Assembly: GCA_031259095.1 (NCBI GenBank)
Contig: JAIRLW010000090.1
Coordinates: 1 to 12,681 of the forward strand
Direction: 5' to 3'
Length of the DNA: 12,681 nt
Source of the DNA: Planctomycetaceae bacterium
Lineage (GTDB): Bacteria; Planctomycetota; Planctomycetia; Pirellulales; Thermoguttaceae
Below, piece by piece: positions 28 through 12,002 of this stretch. The notes under the pieces are model-generated. The model did no database searches, was not told the origin of the DNA, and saw only the letters and a list, made by a program, of their open reading frames with translations. Position 1 is the first letter of the stretch; every line of letters begins with the position of its first letter. A program made the translations under genes and the position numbers.

Positions 28-181
28 ATTGGGTTTTATTTATGTTATACCGTTTTCCTTTTAAAAACCTGTTTTATGATTTCGTTTAACTCCGCAATTT
101 AATGTGTTTTTACATTTCAAAAAACGATTTTCAAAAGGGCTAGGGTATAACTCAAAATCCGAAGTATTACCAAAAAACGAA

Positions 182-200
182 AATTCCGCTGAAATATTAC
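182..200 (-). mobile_element. Solo end of the GTAA/TCAGCGGAATT palindromic element
   Basis: Read on the minus strand this begins GTAA, then four variable bases, then TCAGCGGAATTTT. That is the same terminal sequence found at both ends of the two complete elements at 2077-2381 and 11581-11880. No matching opposite end was found between here and the left edge of the window. A full 300-bp copy would start about 100 bp beyond the edge, so it may be cut off by the window or be a remnant. The inner sequence (1-181) does not visibly match the conserved core of the complete copies. It ends about 18 bp before the exporter gene start, so it could influence that gene's transcription. Confidence 0.5.
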
Positions 201-1974: not shown

Positions 1975-2076
1975 TATTAGGGGGAAATGCCGCCGATGAA
2001 TAATGAATGATAGATATTATTTTTAAGTGATGATTATCTTTCTGATCAAAAAGAAAGTGTTCAAATATTAAAATGT

Positions 2077-2381
2077 GTAATATATCAGCGGAATTTTCCA
2101 AAACATCTTTAACAGTTTTCGCAAACCTCATTTTCAACCTAATTTTTTCCTAACTAAACAACCTCAGTAGCAACAAGTTCCCCAAAGTACAAACCTCATT
2201 ACCTCATTAAAAACGTAAACGAATAATGAGGTAATAAGGTAATAAGGTAATAAGGTCGGTTTTGGCGGGATTCATTGCTACTGAGGTTTTTTGGTAAATC
2301 GTTTTGTTAAGAAAATTAGGCGTAAATAAGGTTAGTAAAAATGAAATCAAAATCTTTGTAATAATTCCGCTGATAGATTAC
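2077..2381. mobile_element. 305-bp MITE-like palindromic element, copy A, with 8-bp target duplication
   Basis: The element starts GTAATATATCAGCGGAATTT and its other end, read in reverse, starts GTAATCTATCAGCGGAATTA. The terminal inverted repeats match at 19 of 21 positions. TAAAATGT occurs directly outside both ends (2069-2076 and 2382-2389), a perfect 8-bp target duplication. Inside, the two halves are imperfect reverse complements: CCTCAGTAGCAA (2162-2173) pairs perfectly with TTGCTACTGAGG (2275-2286). The centre has four 8-bp units of AATRAGGT (2225-2256). No transposase is encoded. GTAA ends with 8-bp duplications are typical of IS66-family elements, so mobilisation by an IS66-type transposase is inferred. 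It lies between the split membrane gene and the 3' end of cheA. Copy B at 11581-11880 is the same element inverted. Confidence 0.85.
2225..2256 (+). repeat. Four 8-bp AATRAGGT tandem units in element A
   Basis: AATGAGGT followed by three AATAAGGT units. The equivalent place in copy B (on its reverse strand) has three units, so unit number differs between the copies. Confidence 0.8.
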
Positions 2382-2485
2382 TAAAATGTTAAAAAAATTC
2401 CCGCTCTGTGCTTTCTGTGGTAAAAATCTTATACGGCAGTTACTGATATTGCCTTGCAGTGTTTGGAGTTCAAAGTATTGGGAGT

Positions 2486-5113
2486 TCACACGACTTGGGC
2501 TTCGAGATCGGCGAACGAAATGTCTGTGTAACTGTTATTTGTTATTGCTGCCGGTTCATCAGACCATGCGGATGCTTTGTTGACCGGCGACGCATGGAAT
2601 GAACCTGTCATCTGGCTGACCGCACCAACATCAACAATGAGGCTTACCGTTCCGTCACCCAGAATCGTACAACCCGAAAAACCATTGGCTTCACCAATGT
2701 AATCGGGCAATCCCTTAATCACCGTTTGTTGCTGACCAATAATTTCGTCCACAAAAAACGCAAAAGATCGTCCGCTGTCTTCCGCAACAATTAGAATACC
2801 GTCTTTGAGTTTTTCGGCGCCGGGTTTACAGCCGAAAACATCGTAAAGCCGGACAATCGGAACCATTTCTTCGCGAAGCCGAAGAATTTCACGTCCTTCC
2901 GGTGTTACCGTTACCTGATTCATTGTCGGGACAAGACTTTCACGAATCGTCAATGTTGGAATCATATATTTTCCTTCGCCCACCCGAACCAACATCGCAT
3001 CGACAATCGCCAACGTCAACGGAATACGAAGCGTAAACGTAGAACCTTGACCGGCTCTGCTGTTAATATCAATCCGGCCATTCAGTTTTTCAATATTCCG
3101 TTTCACCACATCCATTCCAACTCCGCGGCCGGAAATATCGGTAACTTTATCAGCCGTCGAAAAACCGGGTTCAAACACAAGTTTGAAAACACGGTCATCA
3201 GACCAATCTCTAACTTCAGGACCGACAAGACCTTTTTCAATCGCTTTGGCAACAATTTTTTCACGGTTCAGACCGCGTCCGTCATCGGTAATCATAATCC
3301 AAACTTCACCGCCTTCGTGTTTTCCTTCGAGGGTTACGGTTCCGGTTTCCGGTTTTCCGGCTTTAATCCGGTCTTCCGGCAATTCAACACCATGATCACA
3401 ACTGTTACGGACAATATGAACCAAAGGATCGGCAATTTGTTCAATCACCGTTTTATCGACTTCGGTTTCTTCACCAACAAGATTCAATTTGATTTTTTTA
3501 CCTGATTTTGTCGCCAAATCGTGAACCAACCGAATCATTTTACGAAATGTTGCCGAAAGCGGAATCATTCGGACTGCCATTGCCACATCTTGCAAATCAT
3601 CGCAAATTCGGCGAAGTTGATGTTTTGCCCGATTGTAATATTCGTCTTCAACATGAGAAACCGCCGGACAACGTGTTACCATCGACTCCGCAATGACAAG
3701 TTCGCCGACAAGATTGATCAAAATATCGAGTTTATGCAAATCAACCCGAATATCCTGTTTACCTTTTTGAGTTGCCGTTCCGGTACCGCTTGCAGCCGGT
3801 TTAGCGGCGGCGTGATCGGGATGATCATGATCCGCGTTGGGCAATACATCGGAAACCTGAAGCGTCGTTTTGGGAACATCATGTTGTTTAACGAGTTCAG
3901 CAGGCGATGCGGCGGATGGTGTTGGTGTTTGAACCGGCTGCGCAATTACAGAAACTGCCGCATTCGGTATTGCCGAAGCCGAAACCGGAGCCGAAGAAAC
4001 CGGCAATGCCGAGGGATTCACCTGATTTCCAACATCTTGTCCCATTAACGCATTTAATGCCCGAATGTGATAATTCAAATCTTTGATCGTTCCAGAACCG
4101 CCTTCTTCTAAATCTTTAACCGCATCACGGAGAACATCAAGCAAACTAAGAAGTTTTCCGACATTTTTTTCGTCCGGTTTAATTTCACCGTTCCGCAATG
4201 CGTCAAGGAGTGTTTCCATTGTGTGGCTGAGATGTTCCAGATGAACAAGTCCCATAAAACCGCAATTGCCTTTGAAACTGTGAATATAACGAAAAGAATC
4301 TTTAAGCGGTTCCGCCGAATCAACATTTTCATCCAACACCAACAACAGGGCTTGTTCGGCAGCGTCTAATTGTTCGGTGGCTTCGGCAACAAAACCATGA
4401 CGCATTTCCGGTGAAAGTTGCAACGCCGCAAGTTCAGGCTGAACAACCGGTTCCGCAACTATTGGAGCGGAAGCGGGTTCAGGAGTTGAAACTGAAGTTG
4501 AAGCCGGAACTGAAACTGAAGCCGAAACCGATTCATTGGAAGAGGAAAAATCCAATTCGGTTGCGGGAATGGGTTCGTGAACAGGTTCATTCGCCAACAT
4601 TTCAAATGAGAGGTCATCCTTTGAATCAGCGGAAGAGACCATAACAATAGGCGCCGGGCTTGTTGACGCCGACACCGAAAGACCGCCCAATTCATTGTCG
4701 TCAACCGGTTCACCGGCAACATGTTTTTTGAGAACGGTAATAATTGCCTGAGCCGGTTCGGTAAAACCTTCATCATTCCCGCTTTCTTCGATATGTTCCA
4801 GCATTTCACGGAACAGGTCAAGCGCTTTACAAAGAGTTGCCGTAATCTGGACAGTCAAACTGGATTTTCCATTACGGATTTTGTCCAAAAGAGTTTCGGC
4901 TTCGTGAGTTACCGAAGTAACGGTGGTGAGAGAGAGAAAACCGGCGCTGCCTTTCATTGAGTGAAAGAGCCGGAACACGGAGTTGATCAATTCCGAATCA
5001 ACCGTTCCGGCATCGGCGGCTCCGTTGTTGATTTCGATCAAGGTCGGCTCGATCTCGTCAATATATTCGCGGGCTTCCTGAACAAATTCCAATATCAGGG
5101 ACATATCGTTCAT
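2486..5113 (-). CDS. cheA: CheA chemotaxis histidine kinase with two HPt domains
   Basis: This 875-aa kinase phosphorylates itself on histidine and passes the phosphate to response regulators in chemosensory signalling; it acts in the cytoplasm with CheW and receptors. Visible domains: a first HPt with the site H51 in FHSMKGSAG; a Ser/Pro/Val-rich linker (about 145-230); a second HPt with H278 in IHSFKGNCGF; another linker (about 360-450); the dimerisation helix pair (about 453-515); a GHKL ATPase with N box HIVRNSCDHG (566-575), G1 box DDGRG (610-614), G2 box GRGVGMD (662-668) and GQGST (688-692); and a CheW-like regulatory domain (about 700-835). A 40-residue tail follows. It exceeds the 654 aa of E. 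coli CheA because of the extra HPt and linkers. No CheY-binding P2 domain or receiver was recognised. ATG 5113 was chosen; GGGAG lies about 10 bp upstream. No other chemotaxis gene is present here, so its partners must lie elsewhere. Confidence 0.95.
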   Translation of the reverse strand: MNDMSLILEFVQEAREYIDEIEPTLIEINNGAADAGTVDSELINSVFRLFHSMKGSAGFLSLTTVTSVTHEAETLLDKIRNGKSSLTVQITATLCKALDLFREMLEHIEESGNDEGFTEPAQAIITVLKKHVAGEPVDDNELGGLSVSASTSPAPIVMVSSADSKDDLSFEMLANEPVHEPIPATELDFSSSNESVSASVSVPASTSVSTPEPASAPIVAEPVVQPELAALQLSPEMRHGFVAEATEQLDAAEQALLLVLDENVDSAEPLKDSFRYIHSFKGNCGFMGLVHLEHLSHTMETLLDALRNGEIKPDEKNVGKLLSLLDVLRDAVKDLEEGGSGTIKDLNYHIRALNALMGQDVGNQVNPSALPVSSAPVSASAIPNAAVSVIAQPVQTPTPSAASPAELVKQHDVPKTTLQVSDVLPNADHDHPDHAAAKPAASGTGTATQKGKQDIRVDLHKLDILINLVGELVIAESMVTRCPAVSHVEDEYYNRAKHQLRRICDDLQDVAMAVRMIPLSATFRKMIRLVHDLATKSGKKIKLNLVGEETEVDKTVIEQIADPLVHIVRNSCDHGVELPEDRIKAGKPETGTVTLEGKHEGGEVWIMITDDGRGLNREKIVAKAIEKGLVGPEVRDWSDDRVFKLVFEPGFSTADKVTDISGRGVGMDVVKRNIEKLNGRIDINSRAGQGSTFTLRIPLTLAIVDAMLVRVGEGKYMIPTLTIRESLVPTMNQVTVTPEGREILRLREEMVPIVRLYDVFGCKPGAEKLKDGILIVAEDSGRSFAFFVDEIIGQQQTVIKGLPDYIGEANGFSGCTILGDGTVSLIVDVGAVSQMTGSFHASPVNKASAWSDEPAAITNNSYTDISFADLEAQVV

Positions 5114-5159
5114 TTTAATGATTCTCCCAACAAGGTACTGAGGTAATTTTTTTATATTT

Positions 5160-5222
5160 GACTAAAATCGATTTTAGTCGAATTCGGTCGATCAAAAAAC
5201 GAGTTTTTAGAAATTCCCCAAA
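5160..5222 (+). repeat. TCGGTCGATCAAAAAAC repeat with 20-bp perfect palindrome, upstream of cheA
   Basis: GACTAAAATCGATTTTAGTC (5160-5179) is a perfect 20-bp palindrome. It is followed by GAATTCGGTCGATCAAAAAA and then GAGTTTTTAGAAATTCCCCA. The region 11486-11578, on the minus strand, contains a longer relative with the same order of blocks (GACTGAAATCG, TTTAGCCGAATT, TCGGTCGATCAAAAAAC, AAGTTTTTAGAAGTTGCC). The palindrome sits 47-66 bp upstream of the cheA start and could look like an operator, but its membership in a dispersed repeat argues against a dedicated regulatory role. Confidence 0.7.
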
Positions 5223-6408: not shown

Positions 6409-6437
6409 CTGATAGGTAACTTGCCCATCCTATTTTT

Positions 6438-6513
6438 ATTTTCACCACGAAATACTCGAAGGTTCACAAAAAGATTGGAAAAACAATGTTTGTGTTCCTT
6501 ATGTGTCTTTTGT
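6438..6513. repeat. ACCACGAA-type hairpin repeat, copy 2
   Basis: TTTTCACCACGAAATACTCG then AAGGTTCACAAAAAGATTGG closely matches the left arm of the element at 1891-1974. TGTTTGTGTTCCTTATGTGT then CTTTTGTC matches its right arm. The arms here have diverged more from each other, so the hairpin is weaker. The preserved order identifies both as copies of one repeat family. Confidence 0.6.
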
Positions 6514-6620
6514 CTAAGGATTAGTTCAAAAATAACTTGAACAATTTTTAGAAGTGTGTAATTGAAATTACCGAGTTTACCTTGATGAATTGTTCAACTT
6601 ATTATTGAACAGTTCCTAAG
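6514..6620. repeat. 107-bp inverted repeat with TTGAAC arms
   Basis: The 33-bp arms, starting CTAAGGATTAGTTCAA at 6514 and (reverse strand) CTTAGGAACTGTTCAA from 6620, match at 27 of 33 positions and end in TTGAACAATT. The 41-bp middle contains GTAATTGAAATTAC, itself an inverted repeat, and a TTTTTAGAAGTG copy of the recurring motif. It directly adjoins the preceding ACCACGAA repeat and ends 60 bp before the 447-aa gene, so it lies in that gene's promoter or leader region. Confidence 0.6.
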
Positions 6621-9487: not shown

Positions 9488-11404
9488 CTATTTTCCTTCG
9501 CCAGACGGCAAAATTCGATAAACTTTGTAGAGTTCATTGGCGTAAACAACCTGAAACGTTTTGTGGTGCGGCAATTCGGGGTAGGCGGAACAAAGAATAT
9601 AGTCAAATCCGTAGCGGATTCGTAATCGCTCAATCTCTTCATCGGTTTTACACCAAAGTAAAATCGTGAGCGACCGATCATCACAGAGTTGTCCTTCTTT
9701 ATTGCGGTAATAAAAAAGGTCGTGCATCATCTGCCGCCACTGGACAATTCCTTTCGCGTCTTGCGGAATATTTTTCCATGTTCCAATGTCACTCCGATGA
9801 GCGTGCCATTTGAATGTTGTCCCGTCGCGCGGAACCCAAAATTTCGCCGTTTTGGGCGTGTTTTGCGGATCGGCAATCCATCGGCAAGCGTCAATCCAAT
9901 AATATGCAACATAAGAACGACCCGGCTCAATTCGTGAATACGCTATGCTTGTTCGGGCGTCGCCCAACGTTTTGAGCGAATCGAACGGAGCGTAAAACAA
10001 AATAACCGCATAAAGTCCAACAAATCCCCAAACACAAAATGTTTTAAACTCTGCCCGATGCTGTAAAAACCGTTTGGAGAATACGAGAAATCCCCAACAA
10101 ACCAGTATCGTCAACGCCCAAGGAATTCCCGATTCGACGGCGGTATTTGAAAAATAAATCCGCCGACTAAAAATAATGGCGTCGAACAAAAGATAAACAC
10201 CAAACGGAACTCCGAACAAAATCAACCAACCGGAAATCGATAGAAAACGTAAACCGGATTCCTGAATCCGAAAATTTTGACCTGTTTGATCTGTTTGAAC
10301 TATTGGATGTTTTTGAATTGTCTGAATTTTTTGAACTTTTTGAACTTTTTGAATTTTTTGAATAATTGTTAAAAAATGCCGAAGAGTACCGATTGCCACT
10401 CCCGCAGGAATAAAGACGTCCGAAAGCCGAAACCAATAAAACCGAAGGATTTCCGCTGAAAGCGTTCGATTGTTACGAAATCCGTAAGCCGTCAACATTC
10501 CGATCAGGAATAACATTAACGTTCCCCAGAGAAAATATTCAAACCGTTGTTGGCGTTGGTTTCGCTGCTGACCGAAACGCCCAACCGTTATCCAGATTAC
10601 CGCCAATAAAATAAAACGAACCAGATAAGTCAAAGGAAATTGATAGGGTACTAAATGATGATACAGCCGTTCAAAAACATAAATTTGATGAGCATTCCGA
10701 ATTGTTTCTGCGGCAACACCGTAATCGAGCAATAATGCCGGAATCAGTCCGAACAAGGCCAAAAGTCCTCCGGCAAAAAATCCCCAGGGAACGGTAAAAT
10801 GTCGGGGAAAATTTGGGGTACGGCGATGGCAATCCAACAGCAAAACCAAACCGGCAACCAAAACCGACCAACCGCCGACAAGAACATGAAACGCGGAAGC
10901 GAGCCCAAGAAAAATCCAAGTTCGCTGCCAACGTCCGCGCAACATTGCTTCGAGCGCGAGAAAGACAAACGGAAACGCAAACGATTTTCCTTCGACGCCT
11001 CCGAGAATCCATTCACCGGCGGCGTGAAAGGAATCGACATAATACGCCAATGCCCAAGCGGTTAGGATGGAGGTCCCTCGTAGCGGAATCAGGGTAAAAC
11101 TGAGCCGTTGCCAACTCCATGCGAGCAAACCCCAAGTCAGAAAACGTCCGATCCACGCCATCGCGTCGGGTGAAAGAAAAAAAAACAACCAACCGAAAAC
11201 AACATAAAAAGTCCAATGAGCATCTTTGCTTTCCAGAAAGGAATCATTCGGAATCCAATCGGGATTCCAAAAATGAATTGCTTTACCGATATAATACGGT
11301 TCGTTTGAATCGGGAACAGACCAAGCGCCGAAAATGTAAAAAACCGCAAAAACTCCAAGAAATTCGAGCAATATTTTCAAACGATTTCTATATTTTGGGG
11401 TCAT
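9488..11404 (-). CDS. Large multi-pass membrane protein, DUF6798/GT-C-like
   Basis: The 638-aa protein has about ten or more membrane helices in the first 490 residues and a soluble C-terminal part of about 150 residues. Features recalling the planctomycete DUF6798 group, which looks like GT-C glycosyltransferases, include the acidic first loop VPDSNEPYYIGKAIHFWNP (30-48), FLESKDAHWTFY (56-67), GEWILGGVEGKSFAF (130-144), FHVLVGGWSV (172-181), and the C-terminal IPQDAKGIVQWRQMMHDL. By analogy it might transfer a lipid-linked sugar across the membrane, but that is inference. ATG 11404 is preferred; a TTG at 11488 would add 28 residues, but it lies in a dispersed repeat and those residues look unlike the rest. 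No clear ribosome-binding site. A central loop carries a run of three-residue IQK/VQK repeats. It is separated from the lipoprotein gene by 241 bp, so it is probably a separate transcript. Confidence 0.75.
   Translation of the reverse strand: MTPKYRNRLKILLEFLGVFAVFYIFGAWSVPDSNEPYYIGKAIHFWNPDWIPNDSFLESKDAHWTFYVVFGWLFFFLSPDAMAWIGRFLTWGLLAWSWQRLSFTLIPLRGTSILTAWALAYYVDSFHAAGEWILGGVEGKSFAFPFVFLALEAMLRGRWQRTWIFLGLASAFHVLVGGWSVLVAGLVLLLDCHRRTPNFPRHFTVPWGFFAGGLLALFGLIPALLLDYGVAAETIRNAHQIYVFERLYHHLVPYQFPLTYLVRFILLAVIWITVGRFGQQRNQRQQRFEYFLWGTLMLFLIGMLTAYGFRNNRTLSAEILRFYWFRLSDVFIPAGVAIGTLRHFLTIIQKIQKVQKVQKIQTIQKHPIVQTDQTGQNFRIQESGLRFLSISGWLILFGVPFGVYLLFDAIIFSRRIYFSNTAVESGIPWALTILVCWGFLVFSKRFLQHRAEFKTFCVWGFVGLYAVILFYAPFDSLKTLGDARTSIAYSRIEPGRSYVAYYWIDACRWIADPQNTPKTAKFWVPRDGTTFKWHAHRSDIGTWKNIPQDAKGIVQWRQMMHDLFYYRNKEGQLCDDRSLTILLWCKTDEEIERLRIRYGFDYILCSAYPELPHHKTFQVVYANELYKVYRILPSGEGK
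10280..10368 (-). repeat. In-frame 9-bp repeat tract inside the membrane protein gene
   Basis: TTTTTGAAC-like units, 9 bp each, encode repeated xQK triplets (IQKIQKVQKVQKIQTIQK), with a looser continuation (VQTDQTGQ). In the 638-aa numbering this covers about residues 345-377, a polar segment between membrane helices. The regular units point to replication-slippage expansion that keeps the frame. Confidence 0.75.
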
Positions 11405-11485
11405 AGATTCATTTTCAATGGTGAATGAATTGCTTAAATTCAGGTTAGTATAATCCGCGATTGAGTTTAGAAAAATCACGATAGG

Positions 11486-11578
11486 CAACTTCTAAAAACT
11501 TGTTTTTTGATCGACCGAAATCAATCAAATTCGGCTAAATTCAATTTTGGTCGATTTCAGTCGAAGTTTTTAGAAATT
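11486..11578. repeat. 93-bp palindromic repeat ending in TTTTTAGAA motifs
   Basis: The left end AACTTCTAAAAACTT and the right end AAGTTTTTAGAAATT are inverted copies (13 of 15 matching). Between them lie GATCGACCGAAAT, CAAATTCGGCTAAATTC and GGTCGATTTCAGTCG, further pairs in opposite orientation. On the minus strand it aligns block by block with the shorter element at 5160-5222. It covers the region upstream of the 638-aa membrane protein start, and element B is inserted at its right edge. Confidence 0.65.
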
Positions 11579-11580
11579 AT

Positions 11581-11880
11581 GTAACATGTCAGCGGAATTT
11601 TCATATAGATTTAAATTCATCTTTAACAAAACCTCATTTTCAACCTGATTTTTCTTAACAAAACGATTTACCAAAAAACCTCGGCAGCAATGAATCCCGC
11701 CAAAACCGACCTCATTACCTTATTACCTTATTATTCGTTTATGTTTTTAATGAGGTAATGAGGTTGAATAGATATTGTATTTTTGGCTGCTGAGGTTGTT
11801 TTGTTTGGAAAATTAAGTTAAAAATGAGGTTACCAATGGTGCGGTTTATATGTTATTAAAAAATTCCGCTGATCGATTAC
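11581..11880. mobile_element. 300-bp MITE-like palindromic element, copy B, inverted relative to copy A
   Basis: It starts GTAACATGTCAGCGGAATTT and its other end, read in reverse, starts GTAATCGATCAGCGGAATTT. The flanks are GAAATTAT (11573-11580) and GAAACTAT (11881-11888), an 8-bp target duplication with one change. The reverse strand aligns along its whole length with copy A (2077-2381). It is most similar in the central 130 bp, including a 33-bp identical block beginning GAGGTTTTTTGGTAAATC. The outer parts near the ends differ more. It has no coding capacity. GTAA ends and 8-bp duplications suggest IS66-type mobilisation. It lies about 175 bp upstream of the 638-aa membrane protein gene. 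Confidence 0.85.
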
Positions 11881-12002
11881 GAAACTATCTATCATAGATT
11901 CAACATATCCTAGCGGAAAAAATGGTATTTTCAATATCTTCCGATAAATTTTGGGAGATATTCAAATTCGTTTTTTGCATGCTATAAATAAGTTCCGAAG
12001 GG

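Follow-up and report, generated by a model that had tools for sequence, protein, structure and literature searches.

A high-copy palindromic MITE family in Planctomycetaceae with ends of probable IS66 type

Positions 2069-2389 of the window (the whole stretch of DNA analysed, 12,681 nucleotides, which is the entire contig C554 of its source genome) are best explained as one copy of a high-copy, non-autonomous MITE of IS66 type that is mobilized in trans by an IS66 transposase, a reading to which we assign a probability of about 0.86. Sequence tests identify the segment as a MITE, and we infer that it is of IS66 type. The 21-bp ends would be recognised in trans by a DDE transposase of the IS66 family, the product of a single ORF located elsewhere in the genome. 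This enzyme would carry the 305-bp segment into spacer DNA rich in AT, a staggered cut at insertion presumably giving rise to the 8-bp target duplication. The family is probably mobile now, or was so recently.

Anatomy of the element and its neighbours in the window

The MITE proper is a 305-bp segment (2077-2381) whose ends can be read directly: a left terminal inverted repeat, GTAATATATCAGCGGAATTTT (2077-2097, plus strand), and a right one (2361-2381, minus strand) that reads inward as GTAATCTATCAGCGGAATTAT, each 21 bp long and identical to the other at 19 of 21 positions. It is flanked by two exact copies of the 8-bp target duplication TAAAATGT, at 2069-2076 and 2382-2389. When the window was searched for an exact 8-bp repeat accompanied by ends agreeing at 17 or more of 21 positions and spaced 60-600 bp apart, one case was found, versus none in 50 shuffles of two-base blocks. 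The interior is dominated by the class-A core, an imperfect palindrome at 2123-2334, with an inner stem formed by AACCTCAGTAGC (left arm, 2160-2171) and GCTACTGAGGTT (right arm, 2277-2288), both given on the plus strand. Also on that strand lie 8-nt repeats of the CCTCATTA type on the left (2193-2209) and 8-nt tandem repeats of the TAATAAGG type on the right (2224-2256), the latter varying in number among copies. Folded as RNA with its ends included, the element gave z scores of -9.8 (plus strand) and -13.0 (minus strand) relative to shuffles. It contains no ORF reaching 80 aa, the longest stop-to-stop frame being 56 aa.

A sequence-only reading of the window had proposed a palindromic MITE at 2069-2389, and its inverted ends (19 of 21), exact 8-bp duplication and lack of coding capacity are all borne out, as is, by the folding, the description of the interior of 2077-2381 as an imperfect palindrome. 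What that reading could not reveal was the likely IS66-type motor or the variety of interiors described below. A CheA-like gene (2486-5113, minus strand) with Hpt, H-kinase_dim, HATPase_c and CheW domains has the element 104 bp downstream of it.

A second class-A copy lies at 11573-11888 on the minus strand (element 11581-11880); it is 77% identical over the aligned part, its ends agree at 17 of 21 positions, and its duplication, GAAATTAT/GAAACTAT, matches at 7 of 8. There is also a solo right end of a different shell subtype at 147-200 (minus strand; end motif 180-200), for which no left partner was seen in the preceding 146 bases. The spacers of the window hold further palindromic or repeated sequences in which MITE ends are absent (1885-1975, 5158-5221, 6433-6495, 6514-6620 and 11484-11578), and the repeats lacking MITE ends include CACGAAA-type and TTTTTAGAA-type sequences. 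Within a DUF6798 gene, eight copies of a 9-nt repeat of the TGAACTTTT type (10269-10372) encode a short peptide repeat.

Dispersal, target duplications and empty sites

The expectation of many copies with differing 8-bp flanks held when the source genome (G000; 3.84 Mb, 653 contigs, 78% complete) and its sisters were searched, and dispersal is directly observed. A BLAST query with the full element returned 84 matches, which is not a copy number because it includes the query itself, counts palindromic copies on both strands and comes from the scoring of 40 of 390 first-look candidates. Allowing up to three mismatches, 274 forward and 306 reverse end motifs were counted, 580 in all, versus one for a reversed control. 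Among the 39 exact-match rows listed for this motif, 16 start in the first 500 bases of a contig, where the mean contig is ~5.9 kb long, so that assemblies seem to break at the MITE repeats.

When the element was used to query 40 genomes, 16 matched: its own, 15 of the 20 others of the same genus, and none of the 19 from outside the genus. A stricter scan of 296 genomes of the order for the end motif with at most one mismatch, which overlooks carriers whose ends have diverged, G008 among them, gave five positives, with 346 motifs in the source genome, 679 in G018, 61 in G153, 13 in G011 and one in G017. In public genome contigs there are at least 105 matching stretches, and among the matches listed all belong to MAGs named Planctomycetaceae bacterium. 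G153, with its 61 motifs, is from a different genus of the same family, and another member of its genus, G267, has none, a pattern for which transfer between genera or loss can be suggested. The same-genus genomes that do not carry the element (G002, G003, G006, G010 and G015) measure 2.5-3.6 Mb and the 15 carriers 3.5-5.5 Mb; genome size and element load may be associated in the genus. Sample codes hint that the sister MAGs may come from termite guts, though three of those codes are absent from the main text of a paper checked for them.

Pairing inward-facing ends 60-1200 bp apart in loci of the source and sister genomes yielded 120 distinct pairs, and 29 of these have an exact 8-bp duplication, with 29 different words, compared with 0.47 expected from shuffled right flanks. 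The length of the duplication is equally a direct observation, lengths of 4-7 and 9 bp being at background level in the same pairs. Another nine pairs have an 8-bp duplication with one mismatch, and 82 have more mismatches, which cross-pairings and decayed copies may explain. The exact duplications are AT-rich (82%, versus 64% for the flanks and 60% for the window). Once rejoined, 4 of the 29 sites span a reading frame of at least 120 aa, compared with 281 of 400 positions drawn at random from the one window; insertions tend to avoid reading frames.

The sequence-only reading had also pointed to empty sites in related strains as a check, and here the outcome was divided: an empty site is seen for a sibling copy and could not be demonstrated for the copy in the window. 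The sibling, a 172-bp element of another interior class (L040:874-1045, on contig C113 of the source genome), lies between two genes whose orthologues adjoin without a MITE in all eight sister genomes aligned (G001, G005, G011, G012, G013, G014, G016 and G018). The alignment with G014 runs through the junction, whereas the remaining seven sisters have a shorter spacer, so that the exact target word cannot be read in them. For a second element of the same locus (2365-2557), the flanking genes are on separate contigs in the sisters listed, which makes it unusable for an empty-site comparison. For the window copy, the DNA that follows cheA in 16 sister genomes (at least 857 bp of it in 15 of them and only 58 bp in one) matches neither flank, and an empty site for this copy therefore cannot be shown.

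Nesting is also seen directly. In L041 one MITE (483-768) lies inside the loop of another (423-883), and both have exact 8-bp duplications. The halves of the outer MITE form a palindrome of the GTCCCGCAGGGAC type. A search of the source genome for an unoccupied paralogue of this outer element gave, as its best further match, a partial one on contig C143 (86% over 80 of 115 bases); the weaker or shorter matches include positions 147-200 of the window.

Linkage of the ends to an IS66 transposase gene

In sister species the MITE ends are physically linked to an IS66 transposase gene, and in the source genome to a fragment of one. Of the transposase profiles used (PF03050, DDE_Tnp_IS66; NF033517, IS66 transposase; and PF01797, RAYT, Y1), PF03050 identified IS66-family transposases in 11 of the 21 genomes of the genus and had no match in the source genome (78% complete). 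A 391-aa transposase query from G018 has relatives in 12 of the 21, now including the source genome, where an N-terminal piece (~120 bp of gene) at the end of contig C24 is 98% identical to the query over residues 5-47 (87% over residues 1-47 in another search) and has a MITE-type end 71 bp ahead of residue 1.

The spacing between end and gene is narrow. On the 5' side, all six distinct loci that match from residue 15 or earlier (two in G018, one each in G014, G005 and G004, and the C24 fragment) have a MITE-type end whose outer edge is 48-72 bp ahead of residue 1; no MITE-type end was found upstream of the gene piece in L131, which starts at residue 24. On the 3' side, in a comparison drawn from 20 fetched loci, an end lies 23-26 bp past the last residue at five of the nine with at least 60% identity to the query (L299, where the query itself lies, L310, L300, L301 and L317, the last-named and L300 with 4 mismatches each; the misses are L311, L303, L318 and L312), and at none of the six loci below 50% identity that reach the C-terminus. 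In L094 a perfect 21-bp end pair surrounds a truncated IS66 gene, with no 8-bp duplication around the pair. The longest IS66 copy (G018:C241) lacks a duplication and has weak right ends, and its gene is spread across two reading frames; in the genus, we saw no intact autonomous element with MITE ends and no duplication around an IS66 gene copy itself, although exact 8-bp duplications occur in the MITEs.

The partner proteins match PF03050 and, as partial sequences, score 164 and 111 bits against NF033517, under its whole-protein cut-off of 180, which a canonical-end relative passes; public sequence also contains longer relatives, such as P0003 (478 aa, 61% identity). The 48-72 bp that precede the partner gene are too short to hold tnpA or tnpB. 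The MITE is probably driven by an IS66-family transposase of the single-ORF subgroup, which is called ISBst12-like.

Two kinds of end accompany the IS66 transposases of the genus, one of the GTAACCGTTCACGG type (L100 and L103-L107) and the other of the MITE type, and the MITE ends agree with the canonical-type end of the genus at 14 of 21 positions and differ at 7. Published IS66 elements make 8-bp duplications and have ends beginning GTAAGCG (PMC3281130, PMC11946415). Set beside that motif and the genus IS66 end GTAACCGTTCACGG, the MITE ends (GTAATATATCAG) begin GTAAT, so that GTAA agrees with the published ends and GCG does not. GTAA and the 8-bp duplication fit and the bases that follow do not. 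Taken with the linkage to IS66 genes, the MITE appears to work like an IS66-mobilised element. It has in common with IS66-family insertion sequences ends of ~21 bp starting GTAA, 8-bp duplications and a linked DDE_Tnp_IS66 transposase, but unlike them it is gene-less.

The departure from the canonical-type end at 7 of 21 positions, together with the presence in the source genome of an IS66 fragment only and no PF03050 match, would also fit movement by a transposase of some other family that makes 8-bp duplications, the IS66 genes having picked up similar ends or been invaded by the MITE. Chance invasion would not be expected to leave such narrow end-gene spacing both at the 5' side (48-72 bp at 6 of 6 loci) and at the 3' side (23-26 bp at 5 of 9), and the perfect pair in L094 brackets what remains of an IS66 gene. 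We therefore consider another transposase family an unlikely source of movement, and favour an IS66 transposase, which would act on the window MITE in trans.

Palindromic interiors and comparison with known elements

Within the shared ends the interiors are diverse. Clustering the 111 distinct elements of at most 420 bp that have an end on each side gave 30 interior clusters, 11 of them with at least two copies and 13 holding at least one exact 8-bp duplication; the threshold used may divide interiors that are related (GCCCTGAAAGGGC motifs are common to two large clusters), and single end pairs without a duplication among the clusters may be chance pairings. Class A, to which the window element belongs, has 22 copies, 16 of them from the source genome. 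In the first 30 loci of that genome, class-A cores occur at 31 places, 14 with both ends, and the distance from the core to the outer edge of each end found is 44-49 bp (60 bp in one). Most of the other places are cut off by the end of the contig; six lack one end despite having room for it (L006/L025, L020, L023, L024, L026 and L030). The arms beside the ends are of few types that are variously combined, and these differing combinations suggest that recombination between MITE copies may lie behind the mixed arms.

Self-complementarity is widespread among the interiors: when 28 cluster representatives were folded without their ends, 24 were strongly self-complementary (z < -3). At the level of copies, this mark was reached by 74 of 78 shell interiors versus 35 of 80 random spacer windows outside shells, a contrast that is only indicative because the spacer controls were not palindrome-centred and many loci had been picked for the end motif. 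Most interior classes occur chiefly beside one or both ends, and several occur without ends as well, again in a set with many loci chosen for end motifs. For class A, arms of the same copy pair at 0.690 and arms of different copies at 0.706 (sd 0.007, 22 copies), in a test where the palindromic core makes orientation ambiguous and the pairs were taken from one copy's fold. As same-copy arms pair no better, neither a selected hairpin nor conversion between arms is supported, and the palindromic interior gives no sign of selection on base pairing.

REP and BIME palindromes with RAYT are extragenic, palindromic and of high copy number. Several MITE interiors have what we take to be a REP-like appearance, which we counted, with the strong self-complementarity of the element and the frequency of self-complementary sequence in spacers outside shells, towards a REP/BIME-like palindrome spread by a RAYT (Y1) or towards a selected structured RNA or terminator hairpin. 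Both are highly improbable: a REP/RAYT system is made unlikely by the lack of PF01797 matches in the source genome (78% complete), as against 5 of 14 control genomes positive, and runs counter to the exact 8-bp duplications and long common ends, and a structured RNA is made unlikely by the lack of any Rfam match in the window at gathering score and by the absence of within-copy covariation (0.690 versus 0.706 when arms were shuffled among copies). The MITE family is likewise extragenic, palindromic and high-copy when set against REP/BIME palindromes (on which see PMC3733652), but differs in its long terminal repeats and target duplications, and in a genome without a RAYT match.

Other bacterial MITEs offer parallels. 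MITECca01 of Cardinium is IS982-derived and reported to be present in 169 copies that make up 3.5% of the chromosome (PMC9769881); it too is a high-copy bacterial MITE with a parental IS, but involves another IS family in a single strain, whereas here, across a genus, a single pair of ends encloses many interiors. MITEPsy1 of Pseudomonas syringae probably derives from ISPsy2 (listed as 'IS5?') and is reported to have been shown to move (PMC3189936); it is similarly a short IS-dependent element, but is 100 nt long, with a 4-nt duplication and six copies. We recognised no description of an IS66-derived MITE or of a planctomycete MITE among the open-licence papers searched.

The IS66 reading can be extended, more tentatively and with the odds somewhat against it, to a picture in which one set of IS66-type ends forms an exchangeable shell and has, time after time, taken up palindromic cargoes unrelated to one another, so that a single transposase serves many distinct MITEs genus-wide. 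Cargo that folds back might have an advantage, for instance because it brings the ends together or is tolerated in spacers. If so, the reason for the frequent palindromy of MITE interiors would become testable.

The element is ordinary in kind; what gives it moderate interest is the size of its family, the transposase that probably drives it and the exchangeable, palindromic nature of the interiors. It adds a MITE family linked to IS66, one that is part of the repeat load of these planctomycetes and perhaps lies behind the fragmentation of their assemblies.
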